A DNA stretch of 38,239 bases from Chromobacterium piscinae (lineage in GTDB: Bacteria > Pseudomonadota > Gammaproteobacteria > Burkholderiales > Chromobacteriaceae): positions 1 through 38,239 of the forward strand of contig NZ_JAJOHV010000029.1 in assembly GCF_021129175.1 (NCBI RefSeq). Direction: 5' to 3'. Shown one piece after another: positions 11,683 to 21,935 of this stretch (the stretch's first letter is position 1; each line of letters opens with the position of its first letter). Made by a program: the position numbers and the translations under genes. The notes below the pieces were generated by a model. The model saw only the letters and a program-made list of their open reading frames with translations, searched no databases and had not been told where the DNA came from.

Positions 11683-13491
11683 ATGAGCACACCCGCCATG
11701 CTGCAACTGGGCTTGTTCCTGGTTGTGCTGATCGCGCTGGCCTGGCCGCTGGGCGCTTACATGACGCGCGTCATGCAGGGGGAAAATGTCGGGCCGGTCC
11801 GCTTCTTCGCGCCGCTGGAGCGCGCGTTCTACCGCCTGGCCGGCATCAAGCAGGATGAAGAGATGGGCTGGCGCGGCTACGCGGTGGCGCTGATCCTGTT
11901 CAACGTGTTGGGCGTCGTCGCCGTCTACGCGCTGCAACGGCTGCAGGGCATGCTGCCGTTCAATCCGCAGGCGATGGCCGCGGTATCGCCGGACTCCTCG
12001 TTCAACACCGCCATTTCCTTCGTCACCAACACCAACTGGCAAAGCTACGGCGGCGAAACCACGATGAGCTACCTGACCCAGATGCTGGGACTGACGGTGC
12101 AAAACTTCGTGTCCGCCGCCACCGGCGCCGCCGTGGTGATCGCGCTGATCCGCGGCTTCGCCCGCCACAGCAGCGCCAAGATCGGCAACTTCTGGGTGGA
12201 CATCACCCGGATGACGCTGTACGTGCTGCTGCCGCTGGCCGTGGTATTCGCGCTGATTTTCACCCAGCAGGGTGCCATCCAGAACCTGTCCGCCTACAAG
12301 GACGTCCATACCGTCGAAACCGTCAAATACCAGCAGCCTAAGCAAGACGCCAAGGGCAACCCAGTGCTGGGCAAGGACGGCAAGCCGGTGATGGAGGACA
12401 AGACCAGCCAGACGCAGACGCTGCCGATGGGCCCGGTGGCCTCGCAGGAAGCGATCAAGATGCTGGGCACCAACGGCGGCGGCTTCTTCAACGCCAACTC
12501 CGCTCACCCGTATGAAAACCCGACGCCGCTGGCCAACTTCCTGCAGGACATCGCCATCTTCCTGATTCCGGCCGCGCTGTGCTTCCTGTTCGGCCGCATG
12601 GTCGGCGACCGCCGCCAGGGCTGGGCCATCCTCGCCGCGATGACCATCATGTTCGCCACCGCGGTGGTGGTGGAAACCAACGCCGAGCAGGCCGGCGTGC
12701 CGCAATACAGCTCGCTGGGCATAGACCAGCGCGCCAGCGCGCTGCAGTCCGGCGGCAATATGGAAGGCAAGGAAGCCCGCTTCGGCATCATCGACACCTC
12801 GCTGTTCGTCGCCGTGACCACCTCCGCCTCCTGCGGCGCGGTCAACGCGATGCACGATTCGCTGACGCCCATCGGCGGCCTGGTGCCGATGTTCCTGATG
12901 CAGCTGGGCGAAGTGGTGTTCGGCGGCGTCGGCTCCGGCCTGTACGGCATGTTGATCTTCGCGATTCTGGCGGTGTTCATCGCCGGCCTGATGGTGGGCC
13001 GCACGCCGGAATACCTGGGCAAGAAGATCGAAACCTACGAGATGAAGATGACCGCGATCACCATCCTGGTGACCCCGACCCTGGTGCTGGCGCTGACCGC
13101 GATCGCCGTCAGCCTGGCCGCGGGCAAAGCCGGCATCGCCAATCCGGCCGCGCACGGCTTCAGCGAGATCCTCTACGCCTTCACCTCGGCCGCCAACAAC
13201 AACGGCAGCGCCTTCGCCGGCCTGTCCGCCAACACGCCGTTCTACAACATCATGACCGGCCTCGCGATGTTCTTCGGCCGCTTCTTCATGATCGTGCCCA
13301 TCCTGGCGATCGCCGGCTCGTTGGCCGCCAAGAAGCGCCTGGCCGTCACCGGCGGCACCCTGCCTACCCACGGCCCGCTGTTCGTTACGCTGTTGATCGG
13401 CACCGTGCTGCTGGTGGGCGCCCTCAACTATGTTCCGGCCCTGGCGCTGGGCCCGGTGGTCGAGCACCTGCAAATGCTCGCCGCCCGCTAA
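11683..13491 (+). CDS. kdpA: K+-transporting ATPase subunit A, KdpA
   Basis: The K+-binding, channel-like subunit of the KdpFABC pump (superfamily of K+ transporters), in the inner membrane. 602 aa, longer than E. coli KdpA (557). The four P-loop filter regions are visible: [10 protein letters not shown] at 115-124, [36 protein letters not shown] and NNNGSAFAG. About ten membrane segments. Extra length comes largely from a hydrophilic loop of roughly 40 residues before the second filter ([16 protein letters not shown]). The gene is 2 bp after kdpF, with GGAGAA before the ATG. Confidence 0.98.
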
Positions 13492-13515
13492 GCGCGTCAG
13501 TCAAGGAAACTCGAT

Positions 13516-15630
13516 ATGAACGACAATAATCATTCCAAGCAGCTGGCGGCCCCCGCCGCCAGCCACAAGAGCGCGAGCAAGTCGCTGCTCGATCCGGCGC
13601 TGATGAAGCCCGCCATCGTCGACTCGTTCAGGAAGCTGTCGCCGCGCACCCAGTGGCGCAATCCAGTGATGTTCGTGGTGTACGCGGGCAGCATCCTGAC
13701 CACGGCGCTATGGATCCAGTCGCTGGTCGGCCATGGCGAGGCCCCGTCCGGCTTCATCCTGGCCGTGGCGCTGTGGCTGTGGTTCACCGTGCTGTTCGCC
13801 AACTTCGCCGAGGCGCTGGCCGAGGGCCGCAGCAAGGCCCAGGCCGCCAGCCTGCGCTCCGCCAAGAAGAACGTGGTGGCCAAGAAGCTGGCCGGCGGCA
13901 ATCACGGCGCCGCCAAGAGCATCGTCGACGGCACATCCTTGCGCAAGGGCGACTACGTGCTGGTGGAAGCCGGCGACGTGATCCCGGTGGACGGCGACGT
14001 GATCGAAGGCGTGGCCTCGGTGGACGAGTCGGCCATCACCGGCGAATCGGCGCCGGTGATCCGCGAGTCCGGCGGCGACTTCTCCTCGGTCACCGGCGGC
14101 ACCCGCGTGCTGTCCGACTGGATCGTGGTGAAGATCACCGCCAATCCGGGCGAAACCTTCCTCGACCGCATGATCGCGATGGTGGAAGGCGCCAAGCGCC
14201 AGAAGACGCCGAACGAGATCGCGCTGACCATCCTGCTGGTGGCGCTGACTATCGTGTTCCTGATCGTCACCGTGACGCTGCTGCCGTTTTCGCTGTTCAG
14301 CGTGGACGCGGCCAAGGCCGGCACGCCGATCAGCATCACCACCCTGGTGGCGCTGCTGGTCTGCCTGATTCCGACCACCATCGGCGGCCTCTTGTCCGCC
14401 ATCGGCGTGGCCGGCATGAGCCGCATGATGGGCGCCAATGTGATCGCCACCTCCGGCCGCGCGGTGGAAGCCGCCGGCGACGTGGACGTGCTGCTGTTGG
14501 ACAAGACCGGCACCATCACGCTGGGCAACCGCCAGGCATCGGCCTTCATCCCGGCGCCGGGCGTGTCCGAGAAAGACCTGGCCGACGCCGCGCAGCTGGC
14601 CTCCCTGGCCGACGAAACGCCGGAAGGCCGCAGCGTGGTGGTGCTGGCCAAGCAGAAATTCAATCTGCGCGAACGCCAGCTGGCCAGCCATGAAGCCGTG
14701 TTCATCCCGTTCACCGCGCAAACCCGGATGTCCGGCATCGACTACGACGGCCGCCAGATCCGCAAGGGCGCCATCGACGCCATCCGCCGCCACATCGCCG
14801 AACAAGGCGGGCAATTCCCCGACGCGCTGGCGAAAAACGCCGAGGACGTGGCCCGCCGCGGCTCCACCCCGCTGCTGGTGGCCGAAGGCAACCGCGCGCT
14901 GGGCGTGATCGAGCTGAAGGACATCGTCAAGGGCGGCATCAAGGAGCGCTTCGCCGAGCTGCGCCAGATGGGCATCAAGACGGTGATGATCACCGGCGAC
15001 AACCCGCTGACCGCCGCCGCGATCGCCGCCGAGGCCGGCGTGGACGACTACCTGGCCGAGGCCACGCCGGAAGCCAAGCTCAAGCTGATCCGCAGCCATC
15101 AGGCCGAAGGCAAGCTGGTGGCGATGACCGGCGACGGCACCAACGACGCGCCGGCGCTGGCCCAGGCAGACGTGGCGGTGGCGATGAACACCGGCACCCA
15201 GGCGGCCAAGGAAGCCGGCAATATGGTGGATCTGGACTCCAATCCCACCAAGCTGATCGAGATCGTGGAAATCGGCAAGCAGATGCTGATGACGCGGGGC
15301 TCCCTGACCACCTTCTCCATCGCCAACGACGTGGCCAAGTACTTCGCCATCATCCCGGCGGCGTTCGCCAGCACCTACCCGCAGCTGAACGCGCTGAACG
15401 TGATGGGCCTGAACAGTCCGGCCTCGGCCATCATGTCGGCGGTGATCTTCAACGCCGTCATCATCGTGGCGCTGATTCCGCTGGCGCTGAAAGGCGTGAA
15501 ATACCACGCCCGAAGCGCGGCCGAGCTACTGCGCGGCAACCTGCTGGTCTACGGCCTGGGCGGCCTGTTGGTGCCCTTCGCCGGCATCAAGCTGATCGAC
15601 ATGCTGCTGGGCGCGATGGGCCTGGTGTAA
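13516..15630 (+). CDS. kdpB: K+-transporting P-type ATPase subunit B, KdpB
   Basis: ATP-hydrolysing P-type subunit that energises K+ uptake through KdpA. 704 aa. Motifs: TGES at 175-178, whose Ser178 corresponds to the regulatory phosphoserine of E. coli KdpB (S162); phosphorylation motif DKTGT with D329; nucleotide-domain signature KGAIDA; and hinge motif [22 protein letters not shown]. The N-terminus carries a polar extension before the first helix. All catalytic residues are present. The gene lies 24 bp after kdpA, with AAGGAAA before the ATG. Confidence 0.99.
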
Positions 15631-15641
15631 GCGGCGGCCGC

Positions 15642-15663
15642 GGCTCCCGGCATGCCGGGAGCC
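15642..15663. repeat. Perfect 22-bp palindrome between kdpB and kdpC
   Basis: The 22 bp at 15642-15663 (GGCTCCCGGCAT then GCCGGGAGCC) form a perfect dyad in the 78-bp kdpB-kdpC gap, the largest gap inside the operon. No T-run follows, so it is not an intrinsic terminator. It may stabilise the kdpFAB part of the mRNA or tune the subunit ratio. Confidence 0.7.
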
Positions 15664-15708
15664 CGGCGACGCGGCGCGCTCCGCGCCAATAGAATGGAAA
15701 GGATTATC

Positions 15709-16287
15709 ATGAAAGTCATTCGTCCCCTGCTGGTGATCTTCGGCGGCCTGTCGCTGATCACCGGCCTCGCCTACCCGCTCGCCACCACCGGCATCGCCCA
15801 GGCGGCATTCCCGGCGCAGGCCAACGGCAGCCTGATCGAGAAAGACGGCAAGGTGGTGGGCTCGCGGCTGATCGGCCAGAGCTTCACCGGCGAGCAATAC
15901 TTCTGGGGCCGCCCGTCGGCCACCAGCCCGATGCCGTACAACGCCGGCAGTTCCGGCGGCTCCAACCTGGGCCCGACCAATCCGGCGCAGCTGGCCGCGG
16001 TGAAAGGCAATGTGGAAGCGATCCGCAAGGCGCACCCGACCCAGACCGGCCCGGTGCCGGTGGACCTGGTGACCGCGTCGGCCAGCGGCCTGGACCCGGA
16101 AATCTCGCTGGCCTCCGCCTATTACCAGGTTGACCGCGTGGCCGCCGCGCGTAAACTGCCGGCAGACGCGGTGCGCAAGCTGGTCGACGGCCGCGTCGTC
16201 GGCGAAACCTTCGGCTTGCTGGGCGAGCCGCGCGTCAACGTGCTGGAGCTGAATCTGGCGCTGGACGAACTCTCCAAGAAAGCTTAA
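15709..16287 (+). CDS. kdpC: K+-transporting ATPase subunit C, KdpC
   Basis: Single-span subunit that aids nucleotide binding and complex assembly. 192 aa, the usual size. The start at 15709 is chosen for GAAAGGA 6 bp upstream and for [31 protein letters not shown], the conserved N-terminal helix; an ATG at 15694 would add MERII. Family motifs: [50 protein letters not shown], and [19 protein letters not shown] near the end. kdpD begins 6 bp after its stop. Confidence 0.97.
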
Positions 16288-16293
16288 ACCCGC

Positions 16294-18981
16294 ATGACCG
16301 ATCAGCGCCCCGACCCGGATGCCCTGCTGGATGAACTGAAGCGCGAAGAGCTGGAGGCTCAGCGCGGACGGCTGAAGATTTTCTTCGGCGCCTGCGCCGG
16401 CGTCGGCAAGACCTTCGCCATGCTGGCCGCCGCGAGGATCAAGCAACAGGAAGGGGTCAAGGTGCTGGTCGGTGTGGTGGAAACCCACGGCCGCAAGGAA
16501 ACCGCGGCCCAGCTGGACGGCCTGGAAGTACTGCCGCCCAGCCGGATCGAGTACAAGGGCCGCGCGCTGTCGGAATTCGACATCGACGCGGCGCTCGCCG
16601 TCAATCCGCAACTGATCCTGATCGACGAGTTCGCCCACTCCAACGCCCCCGGCTCGCGCCACCCCAAGCGCTGGCAGGACGTGGAGGAGCTGCTCGCCGC
16701 CGGCATCGATGTCTACACCACTCTCAATGTGCAGCACCTTGAGAGCCTTAACGATGTGGTCGGCCAGATCACCGGCATCATCGTCAGGGAAACGCTGCCC
16801 GACCATGTGTTCGACATGGCCGACGAAGTCTCGCTGGTGGATTTGCCGCCGGACGAGCTGTTGTCCCGCCTCGCCGCCGGCAAGGTCTATCTGCCGCAGC
16901 AGGCCGAGCGCGCGGTGAAGAATTTCTTCCGCAAGGGCAATCTGCTGGCGCTGCGCGAACTGGCCCTGCGCCGCACCGCCGACCGCGTCGACGCGCAGAT
17001 GCGCGCCTACCGCGCCGACCAGTCGATCAAACCGGTCTGGCACGCGCGCGAGCGGCTGCTGGTCTGCGTCGGCCCCGGACCGGGCACCGAGAAGCTGGTG
17101 CGCAGCGCCAAGCGGCTGGCCGCCAATCTGGACGCCGACTGGATCGCCGTCTACGTGGAGACGCCCAAGCTGCAGCGGCTGCCGGAAGAGCAGCGCGCGC
17201 GGATATTGAAGGGGCTGAGGCTGGCGCAGGAGCTGGGCGCCGAAACCACGGTGCTGGGCGGCAGTTCGCTGGCCGCCACCTTGCTGGCCTACGCCCGCAC
17301 CCGCAACGTGTCCAAGCTGGTGGTCGGCAAATCCAACCGCGGCTGGATCGCCCGGCGGTGGGAAGGTTCGCTGGTCGCCGAGCTAAGCCGCCTGTCAGGC
17401 GATGTCGACGTCTACGTGGTGGCGCATGAACTGGAAGAAGACGCGGACAGGCGCGGCAAGCGCGTGCCCAGCCTGCTGTTCAGCGACAGCGAGTCCGGCA
17501 ACGCCGCGCGCGGCTACCTCGCCGCCGCCGCCATCTGCTTCGCCACCACCGAGCTCAACCACCTGCTGGTGCCCTATTTCGCGCTGTCCAACGTGATCAT
17601 GGTGCATCTGCTGGCGGTGGTGCTGATCGCCACCCGCTATGGCCGCGGCCCCGGCGTGCTGGCGTCCTTCCTGTCGGTGGCGGCGTTCGATTTCTTCTTC
17701 GTGCCGCCGCAGCTGTCGTTCGCGGTGTCCGACACCCAATACCTGCTGACCTTCATCGTGATGCTGGTGGTGGCGCTGATCATCAGCCAGCTGACCGCCC
17801 GCTTCCGCTTCGAAGCCACCATCGCCACCTACCGCGAGCGCCGCACCCGCGCGCTGTACGACCTGGGCCGCGAACTGGCCGGCGCGCTGACCGCCTCGCA
17901 AATCATCGAAACCGCGGTCGGCCGGCTGGAGCCGCTGTTCCGCGCCAAGGTGATGCTGTTCATTCCCGACAGCGAGGACCGCCTGCGCGCCGCCACCGAC
18001 AGCGGCAACGACGCCGACGCCGGCGTCGCGCAGTGGGTGTTCGACAACCAGCAGCCGGCCGGCCTCGGCACCAACACGCTGCCGTCCAACGCCGCGCTCT
18101 ACGTGCCGCTGAAAGCGCCGATGCGGGTGCGCGGCGTCATCGCGCTGCTGCCGGAGGAGACCGTCCACCCCTTCCTGCCGGAGCAACAGCGGCTGCTGGA
18201 GACCTGCGCCGCCCAGATCGCGCTGGCGCTTGAGCGGGTGCATTACGTGGAAGTGGCCCAAGACGCCATCGTGGCGATGGAGTCGGAGCGGCTGCGCAAC
18301 AGCGTGCTGTCGGTGGTGTCCCACGACCTGCGCACGCCGCTGACCAATATGCTGGGCATGGCCAATATGCTGAACGCTCCCACCCTGCCGCCGGGCCAGC
18401 AAGCCGAGATCGCCCAGTCCATCCAGGACGAGGCGCTGCGGATGACCAAGCTGGTGACCAATCTGCTGGATATGGCCAAGCTGCAATCCGGCGTAAAACT
18501 GAACAAGGAATGGCAGCTGCTGGACGAAGTCGTCGGCAGCGCCGTGCGCGCCTGCGAGCGCAGCCTGCGCCACCACAAGCTGGAGCTGGATCTCAGCCGC
18601 GACCTGCCGGTGCTGGAATACGACGCGGTGCTGATCGAGCGCGTGCTGGTCAACCTGCTGGAGAACGCCGGCAAGTACACGCCGGCCGGATCGCGCATCG
18701 AGCTGGCCGCCCGCCACGACGGCGACAAGGTCCGCATCACCGTCACCGACGACGGCCCGGGCCTGCCCGCTAGCATGGAGCACCGCGCCTTTGACAAATT
18801 CACGCGCGGCGCGCCGGAATCCACCACGCCCGGCGTCGGCCTGGGCCTGGCCATCTGCCGCGCCATCATTGAAAACCACGGCGGAACGATAGAAGCCGGC
18901 AATGTCCGTCCGCACGGCGCCCGCTTCTGCTTCACGCTGCCGGCCGGCGCGCCTCCCGCGCTGCCGCCGGACGACGCCTGA
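16294..18981 (+). CDS. kdpD: Osmosensitive K+ channel sensor kinase KdpD
   Basis: Membrane histidine kinase that senses K+ limitation or salt stress and phosphorylates KdpE. 895 aa, matching E. coli KdpD (894). Order: N-terminal KdpD domain with Walker A GACAGVGKT at 32-40 and IDEFAHSNAPGSRH near 110; a USP-like domain (RLLVCVGPGPGTEKLVRSAKRLA); four closely spaced membrane helices around residues 405-500; a GAF-like domain; then the kinase with H677 in VVSHDLRTPLTN, N-box LLENAGKYTP, G1 DDGPGLP and G2 TPGVGLGLAICR. All motifs are intact. It is co-transcribed with kdpFABC, so the pump and its sensor are expressed together. No strong ribosome site is seen, which suggests coupling to kdpC. Confidence 0.99.
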   Translation: MTDQRPDPDALLDELKREELEAQRGRLKIFFGACAGVGKTFAMLAAARIKQQEGVKVLVGVVETHGRKETAAQLDGLEVLPPSRIEYKGRALSEFDIDAALAVNPQLILIDEFAHSNAPGSRHPKRWQDVEELLAAGIDVYTTLNVQHLESLNDVVGQITGIIVRETLPDHVFDMADEVSLVDLPPDELLSRLAAGKVYLPQQAERAVKNFFRKGNLLALRELALRRTADRVDAQMRAYRADQSIKPVWHARERLLVCVGPGPGTEKLVRSAKRLAANLDADWIAVYVETPKLQRLPEEQRARILKGLRLAQELGAETTVLGGSSLAATLLAYARTRNVSKLVVGKSNRGWIARRWEGSLVAELSRLSGDVDVYVVAHELEEDADRRGKRVPSLLFSDSESGNAARGYLAAAAICFATTELNHLLVPYFALSNVIMVHLLAVVLIATRYGRGPGVLASFLSVAAFDFFFVPPQLSFAVSDTQYLLTFIVMLVVALIISQLTARFRFEATIATYRERRTRALYDLGRELAGALTASQIIETAVGRLEPLFRAKVMLFIPDSEDRLRAATDSGNDADAGVAQWVFDNQQPAGLGTNTLPSNAALYVPLKAPMRVRGVIALLPEETVHPFLPEQQRLLETCAAQIALALERVHYVEVAQDAIVAMESERLRNSVLSVVSHDLRTPLTNMLGMANMLNAPTLPPGQQAEIAQSIQDEALRMTKLVTNLLDMAKLQSGVKLNKEWQLLDEVVGSAVRACERSLRHHKLELDLSRDLPVLEYDAVLIERVLVNLLENAGKYTPAGSRIELAARHDGDKVRITVTDDGPGLPASMEHRAFDKFTRGAPESTTPGVGLGLAICRAIIENHGGTIEAGNVRPHGARFCFTLPAGAPPALPPDDA

Positions 18982-19001
18982 AACCACAAGAGCGACAAGA
19001 C

Positions 19002-19718
19002 ATGAACGACGCACCCATTTCCGTAGTGATCATCGAAGACGAAAAGCCGATCCGCCGCTTCCTGTCGGCGGCGCTGGAAGAGGAGAATCTTACCGTCTAC
19101 GAGGCCGAGACCGGCAAGCAGGGACAGATAGAGGTGGCGACCCGCAAGCCCGATCTGGTCATCCTGGACCTGGGCCTGCCGGACATGAACGGCATAGACG
19201 TGATCAAGAGCCTGCGCGAGTGGAGCGACATCCCCATCCTGGTGCTGTCGGCCCGCACCCAGGAGACCGAGAAAGTGGCGGCGCTGGACGCCGGCGCCGA
19301 CGACTACCTGACCAAGCCCTTCGGCGTCGCCGAATGCCTGGCGCGGATCCGGGTGCTGCTGCGCCGCCGCATCCACGGCAGCGCGGCGGCGCAGCAAACC
19401 TTCCAGTTCGGCGACATCAAGGTGGATCTGGTCAACCGCCTGGTGCACAAGGGCGAAACGCCGGTGCATCTGACGCCCATCGAATACCGCTTGCTGTCCA
19501 CGCTGATCCGCAACGCCGGCAAGGTCATCACCCACCGCGAGCTGCTGCTGGCGGTATGGGGGCCGTCATTCTCCGAACACAACCAGTATCTGCGCGTCTA
19601 CATGGGCCATCTGCGGCAGAAACTGGAAGACAATCCGGCGATGCCGCGCCACATCGTCACCGAAACCGGCGTCGGCTACCGGCTGGTGGAGCAGGAGCTG
19701 CGCCAGCCGGCGGATTGA
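19002..19718 (+). CDS. kdpE: Response regulator KdpE
   Basis: OmpR-class activator of the kdp operon. 238 aa. Receiver domain with acidic pocket E12/D13, phosphoacceptor D56 (VILDLGLPD), switch S83 and K105 (YLTKPF). C-terminal winged helix includes HLTPIEYRLLSTLIRNAGKV and the recognition-helix region HNQYLRVYMGHLRQKLE, closing with ETGVGYRL. It lies 20 bp after kdpD. The likely target is the T-rich box at 11402-11423. It ends the operon; the next good terminator is 190 bp downstream but belongs to a separate transcript. Confidence 0.98.
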   Translation: MNDAPISVVIIEDEKPIRRFLSAALEEENLTVYEAETGKQGQIEVATRKPDLVILDLGLPDMNGIDVIKSLREWSDIPILVLSARTQETEKVAALDAGADDYLTKPFGVAECLARIRVLLRRRIHGSAAAQQTFQFGDIKVDLVNRLVHKGETPVHLTPIEYRLLSTLIRNAGKVITHRELLLAVWGPSFSEHNQYLRVYMGHLRQKLEDNPAMPRHIVTETGVGYRLVEQELRQPAD

Positions 19719-19808: not shown

Positions 19809-19837
19809 TTGACAGCCCGCTGCCATCGGCATAATCT
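19809..19837 (+). promoter_or_regulatory. Strong sigma-70 promoter of the SAM-II leader
   Basis: Perfect TTGACA at 19809-19814, 17-bp spacer, TAATCT at 19832-19837. The predicted start (about 19844) falls exactly at the 5' end of the riboswitch aptamer, so the aptamer is the first thing transcribed. Confidence 0.85.
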
Positions 19838-19842
19838 AACGT

Positions 19843-19904
19843 TCATGCGCCGATTTGACACAGCTTGCGGGCGCTTGATAAATGCCAGCTAAAGCGTATC
19901 CGGA
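19843..19904 (+). ncRNA. SAM-II (SAM-alpha) riboswitch aptamer, copy 1
   Basis: Matches the SAM-II core base for base at the conserved positions: GCGCC (19847-19851) opens P1 and pairs with GGCGC (19869-19873); GATTT follows P1; TTGC lies at 19865-19868; TGATAAATG follows P1's 3' strand; then AGCTAAAG, whose GC (19888-19889) pairs with GC of TTGC in the H-type pseudoknot. These blocks are the same as in the crystallised Sargasso Sea SAM-II RNA as I recall it. SAM-II binds S-adenosylmethionine and turns genes off. The aptamer is followed at once by an intrinsic terminator, so the first control step is probably transcriptional. Confidence 0.92.
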
Positions 19905-19906
19905 TC

Positions 19907-19940
19907 AACCCGCTTGCGCTTAATGGCCAGCGGGTTTTTT
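19907..19940 (+). terminator. Intrinsic terminator, expression platform of riboswitch copy 1
   Basis: 8-bp stem AACCCGCT (19907-19914) with AGCGGGTT (19929-19936), 14-nt loop, T-run through 19940. The aptamer tail AAGCG (19892-19896) can pair with CGCTT (19911-19915) in the 5' arm. That would be an antiterminator, mutually exclusive with both the ligand-bound pseudoknot and the terminator. Confidence 0.85.
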
Positions 19941-19986
19941 CATGGCTGGCCGGGGCATGCTCTCCCGCAGGCGGTTTCGGATCGGC

Positions 19987-20050
19987 TCAGGCGCCGAGTT
20001 AATGACAACTTGCAGGGCGCCGAAAAATCCTGCTAAAGCGTCGCCGGCCA
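19987..20050 (+). ncRNA. Second SAM-II-like aptamer (diverged copy 2; SAM-II/SAM-V type)
   Basis: About 62 nt aligned with copy 1 over its whole length. Conserved: GCGCCGA start, TGACA, CTTGC, GGGCGC, an A-rich GAAAAAT joining segment, and the identical TGCTAAAGCGT end with CCGG shortly after. P1 is GGCGCC (19990-19995) with GGCGCC (20016-20021). Differences: GAGTTAA replaces GATTTGA after P1, and GAAAAAT replaces GATAAAT. These touch the ligand-contact region, so affinity or class may differ (SAM-V has a SAM-II-like core). Its tail runs into the helix that holds the ribosome site of the 99-aa gene. Confidence 0.75.
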
Positions 20051-20051
20051 T

Positions 20052-20090
20052 CCAGGCCCGGCACGCGCAGCGCGACCGAACCTGGGAGAG
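20052..20090 (+). promoter_or_regulatory. Ribosome-site-sequestering helix, expression platform of copy 2
   Basis: CCAGG (20052-20056) pairs with CCTGG (20081-20085), and an inner CGCG-CAG-CGCG hairpin lies at 20064-20074. The Shine-Dalgarno GGGAGAG (20084-20090) starts inside the outer helix and is 6-8 bp from the ATG at 20097. A translational off-switch is the simplest reading. Confidence 0.6.
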
Positions 20091-20096
20091 CCAAAA

Positions 20097-20396
20097 ATGT
20101 ACGACTGCCTGCAAGACAGCTATACCGATTTCTCTTTTGCGATTTTTGATGCCGTGGGAAGACCTCGCCCCCTCTGTGGCAGCCTGAGCGCCACACCGCT
20201 GCCGTCCGGCGACGACAGCGCCCTGCACGACCTCGCCGCCTTCGCCCGCGACCAGGGCTATGACATAGACCGCGGCGAACAGCAACTGACCGTCCGCGAC
20301 ATCAGCCTGGCCGACGCGCTGGCGATCAACACCCGCTTCGGCGGCGAGCTGATCATCAGCTGCGATCTGCGGCGCGATCCGCCGGTGCGGTTCTAA
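20097..20396 (+). CDS. Uncharacterised 99-aa protein under tandem SAM riboswitches
   Basis: Not recognised. Begins MYDCLQDSYTDFSFAIFDAV; the second half is DLAAFARDQGYDIDRGEQQL, then a VRDISLADALAINTRFGGELIISC ending, which suggests a small alpha/beta fold. Acidic and soluble, without signal peptide or membrane span. Codon use matches neighbouring real genes (strong G/C at third positions), and GGGAGAG is well placed, so it is very likely translated. Control by SAM-II-type riboswitches is otherwise known mainly for methionine/SAM synthesis and uptake genes (metA, metX, metK, bhmT and similar), so a role in sulfur amino-acid or methyl metabolism is inferred from context only. The next gene has its own promoter. 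Confidence 0.8.
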   Translation: MYDCLQDSYTDFSFAIFDAVGRPRPLCGSLSATPLPSGDDSALHDLAAFARDQGYDIDRGEQQLTVRDISLADALAINTRFGGELIISCDLRRDPPVRF

Positions 20397-20475: not shown

Positions 20476-20505
20476 CAGACAGTATGCGGGCGGGGCGGCT
20501 ATAAT
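20476..20505 (+). promoter_or_regulatory. Sigma-70 promoter of the MATE-murB pair
   Basis: CAGACA at 20476-20481, 18-bp spacer, perfect TATAAT at 20500-20505. The start near 20512 leaves a leader of about 25 nt with AGGA before the ATG at 20538. Confidence 0.7.
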
Positions 20506-20537: not shown

Positions 20538-21935
20538 ATGCTGTTCGAACTCAACCGCGCCTCGCGCGCCGAAATCCTGGCCGAAGCGCGCCAGATCGCC
20601 GGACTCGCGCTGCCGATGATGGTCGCCCAGATCGCCCAGGTGGCCACCAGCTTCGTCGACACCGTGATGGCTGGCCGCGTCGGCACCGACGACCTGGCCG
20701 CCGTGTCGCTGGGCGCCAGCGTGTTCATCACCGCCTACGTGACGCTGATGGGCGTGGTCGCCGCGCTCAATCCCATCCTGTCCCACCATTTGGGCTCCCG
20801 AGACCAGCGCGCCTTCAGCCACGACGCGGCCCAGGGCCTGTGGTTCGGCCTCATCCTCGGCATCCTAGGCGGCGGCCTGATGCTGGCGCTGGAAGCGCCG
20901 CTGCGCCACTGGCTGCACCTGCCGCCCGAGGTCACCGACAAGGTGATGCTGTTCATCTCCGGCGCGGCCATCGGCATGCCGGCGGCGATGATCCACCGCG
21001 CGCTGCACGCCTACGCCTCCAGCCTGGGCCACCCCAAGGCCATCATGGTGGTCAGCCTCTTGGCGCTGGCGCTGAACGTCCCGCTCAACTACATCCTGAT
21101 CCACGGCCTGTTCGGCATGCCCAAGATGGGCGGCGCCGGTTGCGGCTGGGCCACCGGCATCGCGTTCTGGTTCAACTGCCTGGCGCTGCTCGCCTATGTC
21201 AGCTGGCATCGCAATTTCCGCGACAATCGCATCCTTGCCGGGCTGGCCGCGCCGGACTGGCGCCGCTTCATCGCCTTCCTGAGGCTGGGCGTGCCCATCG
21301 GTCTGTCTTTCTTCGTCGAAGTCAGCCTGTTCTCCTTCATCGCGCTGCTGATCGCCGAGCTGGGCACTGTGGTCGTGGCCACCCACCAGTCGGTGCTGAA
21401 CTTCTCCAGCCTGATCTACATGCTGCCGCAAAGCGTGGCCACCGCGCTGTCGGTGCGGGTCGGCCACCACGCTGGCGCCGGCGACTACAAGGCCGCCCGC
21501 TTCATCTCCGGCGTCGGCATGTTGATGGGGCTGGCGATGGCAGGCGGCGCGATGCTGCTGGTGCTGCTGCTGCGCGAGCCCATCATGTGGATGTACAGTA
21601 CCGATCCCAGAGTGATCGCGATGGGCACCTCGCTGCTGCTGTTCGCCGCCGTCTATCAACTGACCGACGCCGCCCAGACCATCGCCTCCGGCGCGCTGCG
21701 CGGCTACAAGCTGACCGCGGTGCCGATGCTGATCCACATCACCTCGTTCTGGATGGTGGGCCTGGGCCTGGGCATGCTGCTGGGGCTGACCGACTGGATC
21801 GTGCCGCGGATGGGCATCTATGGCTTCTGGACCGCGCTGGTGATCAGTCTGACCGTAGCCGGCCTGCTTCTGACCTATTATCTGGCCCGCGCCAGCCGCA
21901 AGCGGCTGCACCGCGACCAAGGAATCCTGTTATGA
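20538..21935 (+). CDS. norM: MATE-family multidrug/cation antiporter (NorM type)
   Basis: Inner-membrane efflux pump driven by Na+ or H+. 465 aa, twelve predicted helices in two six-helix halves, the usual MATE size. The N-terminal signature LALPMMVAQIAQVATSFVDTVMAGRVGTDDLAAVSLG matches NorM (substrate-path residues in TM1). The middle GAGCGWATGIAFWFN and the second-half start LRLGVPIGLSFFVEVSLFSFIALLIAELG, then ATHQ, are also typical. Its stop overlaps the murB ATG, so a cell-wall enzyme is coupled to an efflux pump. Substrates cannot be predicted from sequence. It could be read through from the riboswitch leader, but it has its own good promoter. Confidence 0.95.
   Translation: MLFELNRASRAEILAEARQIAGLALPMMVAQIAQVATSFVDTVMAGRVGTDDLAAVSLGASVFITAYVTLMGVVAALNPILSHHLGSRDQRAFSHDAAQGLWFGLILGILGGGLMLALEAPLRHWLHLPPEVTDKVMLFISGAAIGMPAAMIHRALHAYASSLGHPKAIMVVSLLALALNVPLNYILIHGLFGMPKMGGAGCGWATGIAFWFNCLALLAYVSWHRNFRDNRILAGLAAPDWRRFIAFLRLGVPIGLSFFVEVSLFSFIALLIAELGTVVVATHQSVLNFSSLIYMLPQSVATALSVRVGHHAGAGDYKAARFISGVGMLMGLAMAGGAMLLVLLLREPIMWMYSTDPRVIAMGTSLLLFAAVYQLTDAAQTIASGALRGYKLTAVPMLIHITSFWMVGLGLGMLLGLTDWIVPRMGIYGFWTALVISLTVAGLLLTYYLARASRKRLHRDQGILL

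Follow-up and report, generated by a model that had tools for sequence, protein, structure and literature searches.

How is the gene for a 99-aa protein controlled when it lies behind two riboswitch-like elements in tandem, and to which regulon might it belong? We addressed this question for one locus in the window, by which we mean the entire 38,239-base stretch of DNA that was analysed. On the forward strand, the locus begins with a promoter-like site read from the sequence as TTGACA-17-TAATCT (19809-19837, with TTGACA at 19809-19814). This is followed by a SAM-II-type aptamer of a terminator-associated lineage (copy 1, 19841-19901), an intrinsic terminator (19907-19940) and a SAM-II-like aptamer of a ribosome-site lineage, a type shared with metK leaders (copy 2, 19985-20045). 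The expression platform of copy 2 (20041-20092) extends to the ribosome site, CCTGGGAGAGCC (20081-20092), of the gene encoding the 99-aa protein, a member of what we term the MYDC family (20097-20396). A gene for a NorM-like transporter of the MATE family (20538-21935) lies 3' of the MYDC gene on the same strand, and the upstream region (11683-19718) carries what we take, judging from the translations, to be a kdp potassium-uptake operon with a two-component system. The initial annotation had placed a promoter ahead of the tandem, and this stands in part: the TTGACA box is present and was seen again in the leaders of relatives, but TAATCT agrees with the -10 consensus at three of six letters and a consensus promoter scan did not call the site at 19809.

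Copy 1 had been described as possessing every SAM-II core block, and all of these were indeed found within 19847-19896, comprising a P1 stem (19847-19851 with 19870-19874), the third strand GATTTG (19852-19857), the loop CAGCTTGC (19861-19868) and GCTAAAG (19888-19894). Copy 2 consists of a P1 stem (19990-19995 with 20016-20021), the third strand GAGTTAA, the loop GACAACTTGC (20004-20013) and GCTAAAGCG (20032-20040). Both copies aligned end to end with the Rfam SAM-II model RF00521, copy 1 with 21.6 bits (E 0.011) and copy 2 with 12.3 bits (E 3.6), against a cut-off of 36, and at curated cut-offs Rfam returned no match in the whole window. The RF00521 cut-off was exceeded in 4 of 61 relatives, and copy 1 scored above it in three homologous leaders (L058, L062 and L054). 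A SAM-V model had also been suggested for this region; SAM-V was absent from the six Rfam matches obtained in the window at E up to 10, and we rejected the assignment of copy 2 to SAM-V on this result.

When RF00521 was applied as a survey tool at E up to 1 it proved unspecific, as it also matched 8 of the 14 control genomes, each time below the cut-off. Because of this lack of specificity, and because both copies fall below the Rfam cut-off, we constructed lineage models from 44 copy-1 leaders (R1), from 38 copy-2 leaders (R2) and from 26 aptamers preceding metZ, metK, metH or a cystathionine-gamma-synthase-type gene, with no leader of a 99-aa gene included (R3). Across the 38,239 bases R3 gave just two matches, at 19841-19901 (64.3 bits, E 1.6e-16) and 19985-20045 (47.0 bits, E 1.1e-11), the E-values of such home-made models being rough. 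The training loci of R3 were retrieved with R1 and R2, so that the choice of loci is tied to the 99-aa leaders, and the independent element is the identity of the downstream gene. Copy 1, which the initial annotation had expected a covariance model to recognise, therefore falls short of the RF00521 threshold but is found by the lineage model, and the second aptamer copy that it had described is likewise recovered.

The MYDC protein was found in 60 of the 61 genomes of the host's family. In the wider order, the MYDC profile matched in 41 of 399 genomes with E 1.6e-10 or better, distributed over families f1, f5, f22, f32 and f51, and the same 399 genomes gave 13 additional matches that were weak. 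We assembled 75 MYDC leaders, 60 from the host's own family and 15 from others, in which R3 identified 143 matches. Every leader carried at least one aptamer, with two in 68 leaders and one in seven.

In copy 1 the third strand reads GATTTG in 43 of 44 aligned leaders, and the letters of the binding pocket, namely the third-strand U's and GCTAAAG, are present. The intrinsic terminator reported downstream of copy 1 was confirmed: the search recovered one in 62 of 63 distinct leaders, and in the exception (G170) the stem falls at the limit of the 95-base scan. GCGGG in copy 1 is an alternative pairing partner for the 5' arm of the terminator, CCCGC (P 0.21 in the window's leader). Across 62 leaders this run had a mean of 4.9, compared to 3.9 in shuffled arms, and most single leaders were not above their shuffles. 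The pairing is thus a possible antiterminator, for which these numbers are suggestive only.

The third strand of copy 2 is more variable, reading GAGTTA in 20 of 38 leaders, GATTTA in 13 and another sequence in five; its last two U's are retained, and the first is replaced by G in 21 of 37 pattern-matched rows. The loop and the 3' blocks are almost invariant, with the loop ACAACTTGC present in 37 of 38 leaders. An extra hairpin stands ahead of GCTAAAG within copy 2 in several leaders from families f22 and f5. Compensatory changes in the P1 stem were seen at the outer pair in copy 2 and at three pairs in the metK type, where 18 cells were altered on both sides, a value that none of 500 shuffles equalled and that exceeded every slid version of the stem. 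Both strands of the pseudoknot helix P2 (loop TTGC and GCTAAAG) are present and invariant, so covariation is silent on this helix either way.

Unlike the copy-1 type, the copy-2 type is not followed by a terminator. Its platform in the window contains a local hairpin (GCCGG..CCGGC) and a stretch at 20046-20056 (GGCCATCCAGG) that is able to pair with the ribosome site. We compared the pairing of each leader's downstream stretch with its own ribosome site and with those of other leaders, using a permutation that ignores kinship, and under this procedure a leader's own site was paired more strongly among the MYDC leaders (n=69, z -5.3), within Chromobacterium only (n=17, P 0.0018), among leaders from outside the family (n=17, P 0.0016) and among metK leaders (n=23, z -6.8). 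Constrained folding of 76 leaders gave no consistent SAM-dependent shift in the accessibility of the Shine-Dalgarno sequence, with changes larger than 0.05 going down in eight leaders and up in nine, and the window's copy-2 platform folded alone was unremarkable (z -0.86). The hairpin 3' of copy 2 beat mononucleotide shuffles (P < 0.05) in 35 of 69 distinct leaders; this hairpin is real, yet on its own it does not enclose the Shine-Dalgarno sequence. The helix that the initial annotation had seen enclosing the ribosome site is accordingly backed by the comparative pairing of leaders with their own sites but not by constrained folding or by the fold of the window's platform. At the level of sequence, these comparisons establish two aptamer sub-lineages, the first followed by a conserved terminator and the second by a stretch that covaries with the ribosome site.

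R1 and R2 each matched in 180 of 250 genomes of the order (E up to 0.001, again a rough value), and the two models cross-match. Of 30 R1 loci that we fetched, 17 preceded metZ, three metH, two metK, one a gene of cystathionine-gamma-synthase type and seven a MYDC gene (one recognised by profile only). The 30 R2 loci fetched comprised 22 MYDC genes (eight identified by tblastn and 14 by profile), three metK genes and five other ORFs. When known MYDC loci were excluded, metK lay downstream in all 20 of the further R2 matches selected, and in many families the copy-2 type stands alone before metK. We also found an RF00521 match upstream of metX (L035). Since related aptamers precede genes for methionine and SAM metabolism, SAM would be by far the likeliest ligand.

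In each of nine genomes inspected singly, the window's included, one extra R1 site lies upstream of a metN-like gene. In the window's genome this site is on the minus strand at G000:C20:169630-169684 (L172:1501-1555), and the next gene is metI-like. The two products scored 301 bits (MetN) and 187 bits (MetI), both under the NCBIfam cut-offs, with a metN-like ORF that is shorter than the MetN model and a metI-like ORF that is truncated by the end of the locus. The aptamer at the metN site is compact, the loop ahead of GCTAAAG being shortened, and the same was observed in the eight other genomes inspected.

Searching the 20 metK leaders with Rfam yielded a single match to RF00521 (21.8 bits, under the cut-off) and, at E up to 1, none to SAM-V. 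At two metK loci, SAH riboswitches scoring above their Rfam cut-off lie 3' of metK on the same strand (L244:139-216 and L249:118-202), so that SAM and SAH switches adjoin there. Outside the order, one genome (G691) contains eight R2 matches. The five places that we read in it (L259, L260, L261, L262 and L263) hold tandem leaders of SAM-II type, of which three are almost identical, ahead of short uncharacterised ORFs (98 and 74 aa), followed in one case by an HD-domain-like ORF. Other non-methionine ORFs also lie behind copy-2-type or tandem leaders (L155:1389-2081, L156:1506-2644, L250:1396-2060, L251, L254:1394-3053, L146-L148, L258, L264 and L049). The products in this set include short proteins without a Pfam match, a MoxR-like AAA ATPase (L254, L146-L148) and an HD_4 protein (L156).

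We consider it likely, on the evidence of the leader and its relatives, that positions 19841-20096 act as a two-stage SAM OFF switch, with termination followed by masking of the ribosome site. At high SAM, copy 1 would bind SAM and the terminator would form, stopping transcription. In transcripts that read through, SAM on copy 2 would fix the pseudoknot, leaving the downstream stretch to pair with the Shine-Dalgarno sequence and block translation. At low SAM neither stage would hold, and MYDC, probably together with the MATE transporter, would be made. Within this scheme we infer SAM binding, the direction of the switch, the antiterminator and the exact alternative pairing of copy 2. The initial annotation had proposed a two-stage tandem of SAM-II type outside Pelagibacter; the tandem, the terminator and the methionine-gene context agree with this, whereas constrained folding gave no copy-2 switch. 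A tandem of this kind should produce a sharper and safer OFF state than a single switch, an argument that has been made for other tandems in the available part of a 2022 review (PMC9481103).

The features that set copy 2 apart invite other explanations. Copy 1 might be the only working SAM switch and copy 2 a degraded or purely structural duplicate, as its deviation at one third-strand position, its RF00521 score of merely 12.3 bits and the constrained folding without a copy-2 switch would suggest. We regard this as quite unlikely, because copy 2 appears to be the more indispensable copy: the seven single-aptamer leaders among the 75 (G029-G032, G191, G289 and G318) all retain the copy-2 type, which also occurs on its own before metK in many families and keeps its loop and 3' blocks nearly unchanged. 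A different possibility is that copy 2 senses a ligand other than SAM, such as SAH or some further metabolite related to SAM, which would turn the leader into a two-input gate. The G that is usual at the third strand of copy 2 and of the metK type appears to map to the SAM-V U that the accessible portion of PMC6061858 places beside the ligand adenine, and changes of ligand through small changes in an aptamer are known, according to the part of PMC10853860 available to us. The copy-2 type, though, can have either U or G there, and the gene that this type accompanies is that for SAM synthetase itself, and we therefore hold a second ligand to be unlikely.

Instead of being a riboswitch, the conserved leader might also act in trans as a small RNA or serve as a binding site for a protein, given that sub-threshold matches to the sRNA families RF02424, RF02501, RF02630 and RF01396 overlap copy 1 and its terminator. 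These matches rest largely on the terminator, whereas the conserved letters of the leader are those of the SAM-II core, P1 covaries and methionine genes lie downstream in most R1 loci, which makes this explanation highly improbable. The two-stage SAM switch thus remains the reading that we prefer.

We then considered the genes under this control. In the species collection, from which the window's own record may be missing, the nearest named relative of the MYDC protein comes from Chromobacterium vaccinii, with 98% identity, which puts the window in Chromobacterium or very near it. As the initial annotation had supposed, the 99-aa protein corresponds to no known methionine gene: the family matched nothing in Pfam, NCBIfam or among solved structures, apart from scattered weak matches of single members, and PADLOC gave no match for the protein. 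Codon changes between close relatives concentrate at the third position (against G018, for example, the first, second and third positions carry 7, 5 and 13 changes), indicating that MYDC is a real gene. In a set of 32 diverse members, some pairs share only about 20% of their residues, yet all have M, D and C at positions 1, 3 and 4; since the codons at these residues vary, it is the protein that is under constraint. In one genome (G044, L084) an in-frame TAA follows residue 82 of the MYDC gene. AlphaFold2 predicted a beta-alpha-beta-beta-alpha-beta core for residues 25-93 (mean pLDDT 78.7), with the first 20 N-terminal residues poorly predicted; an ACT-like or other ferredoxin-like fold is only a guess from this model.

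Of the 59 loci of sufficient length, 57 have a MATE gene next in the same orientation, the exceptions being G021 and G260; in four genomes of family f5 and in G377 the projected MATE start and the 3' end of MYDC overlap. This arrangement suggests that MYDC and MATE form one unit. Since Chromobacterium has a 141-base gap between the genes and a TATAAT box belonging to the MATE gene (20500-20505), there is room for a separate promoter, and the MATE gene may also use its own in this genus. If the leader is a two-stage SAM OFF switch, the MYDC-MATE unit would therefore belong to the SAM/methionine regulon, along with metN in the window's genome. Control by low SAM and the position before a transporter would point to MYDC helping to recover or save methionine or SAM, or else working as the transporter's partner.

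Comparison with described systems places the leader close to SAM-II. Like RF00521 (SAM_alpha), its aptamers have P1 and the blocks GATTT, TTGC and GCTAAAG, with order and spacing unchanged, together with a terminator platform and methionine genes in relatives. They differ in that they mostly score under the cut-off and have a short P2a, and in that copy 2 has GAGTTAA, GACAACTTGC and a probable ribosome-site platform. With SAM-V the copy-2 type would have in common ribosome-site control and a related pseudoknot, and some of its relatives have the extra hairpin before GCTAAAG, but neither the window (E up to 10) nor the 20 metK leaders (E up to 1) matched that model. Tandem SAM-II and SAM-II/SAM-V leaders described in the accessible text of PMC9481103 and PMC2704228 place a terminator-controlled aptamer first and a ribosome-site-controlled one second, the order that we propose here. 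The leader studied here differs from them in its second aptamer, which has no SAM-V match, in its target, a small MYDC protein and a MATE transporter, and in its occurrence in a betaproteobacterial order. The 2022 review counts 44 tandem SAM-II leaders, some with the terminator first and the ribosome site second, and leaves their targets unnamed in the text available; because it includes these mixed-platform tandems (PMC9481103), the tandem arrangement itself is not new.

On the distribution of SAM-II, a 2009 study, as far as its available text goes, describes the class as common among alpha-, beta- and gammaproteobacteria (PMC2704228); a 2014 survey, in its accessible part, has SAM_alpha confined to Rhizobiales and Rhodobacterales (PMC4239095). 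That part of the survey also describes a metXZ element with six conserved regions, a pseudoknot and a terminator before metX and metZ, to which the copy-1 type corresponds in anatomy and in genes. The element is not called SAM-II there, and the same text gives no regulator of metK or metNIQ, stating that regulators of betaproteobacterial metY, metK and metNIQ were sought without success. Compared by these descriptions, the metXZ element would be a terminator-type SAM-II. In the open-access literature we found no paper linking SAM-II with Chromobacterium or with betaproteobacterial metK, and none linking a SAM riboswitch with a MYDC-adjacent MATE gene. As far as these searches show, three things are new: the ribosome-site type at metK, the sites before metN and the MYDC-MATE unit as a target.

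Finally, the evidence allows a broader proposal, for and against which we see roughly equal chances. The copy-2 RNA would be a distinct, largely uncatalogued sub-class of ribosome-site SAM riboswitch that controls metK throughout the order, supplying the regulator missing from the 2014 survey. Joined to a terminator-type SAM-II, it would form a ready-made OFF leader placed before several unrelated short proteins, with MYDC-MATE the most widely kept. If this is true, the short proteins behind tandem leaders would constitute a small-protein regulon of SAM starvation. The lineage also illustrates that the Rfam SAM-II model overlooks most members where the motif is common, and it offers a candidate regulator for the betaproteobacterial metK and metNIQ genes that the published survey (PMC4239095) had sought unsuccessfully. 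For the organisms that carry it, the leader marks the conserved two-gene MYDC-MATE unit as a probable part of the SAM response and provides a starting point for the function of MYDC.
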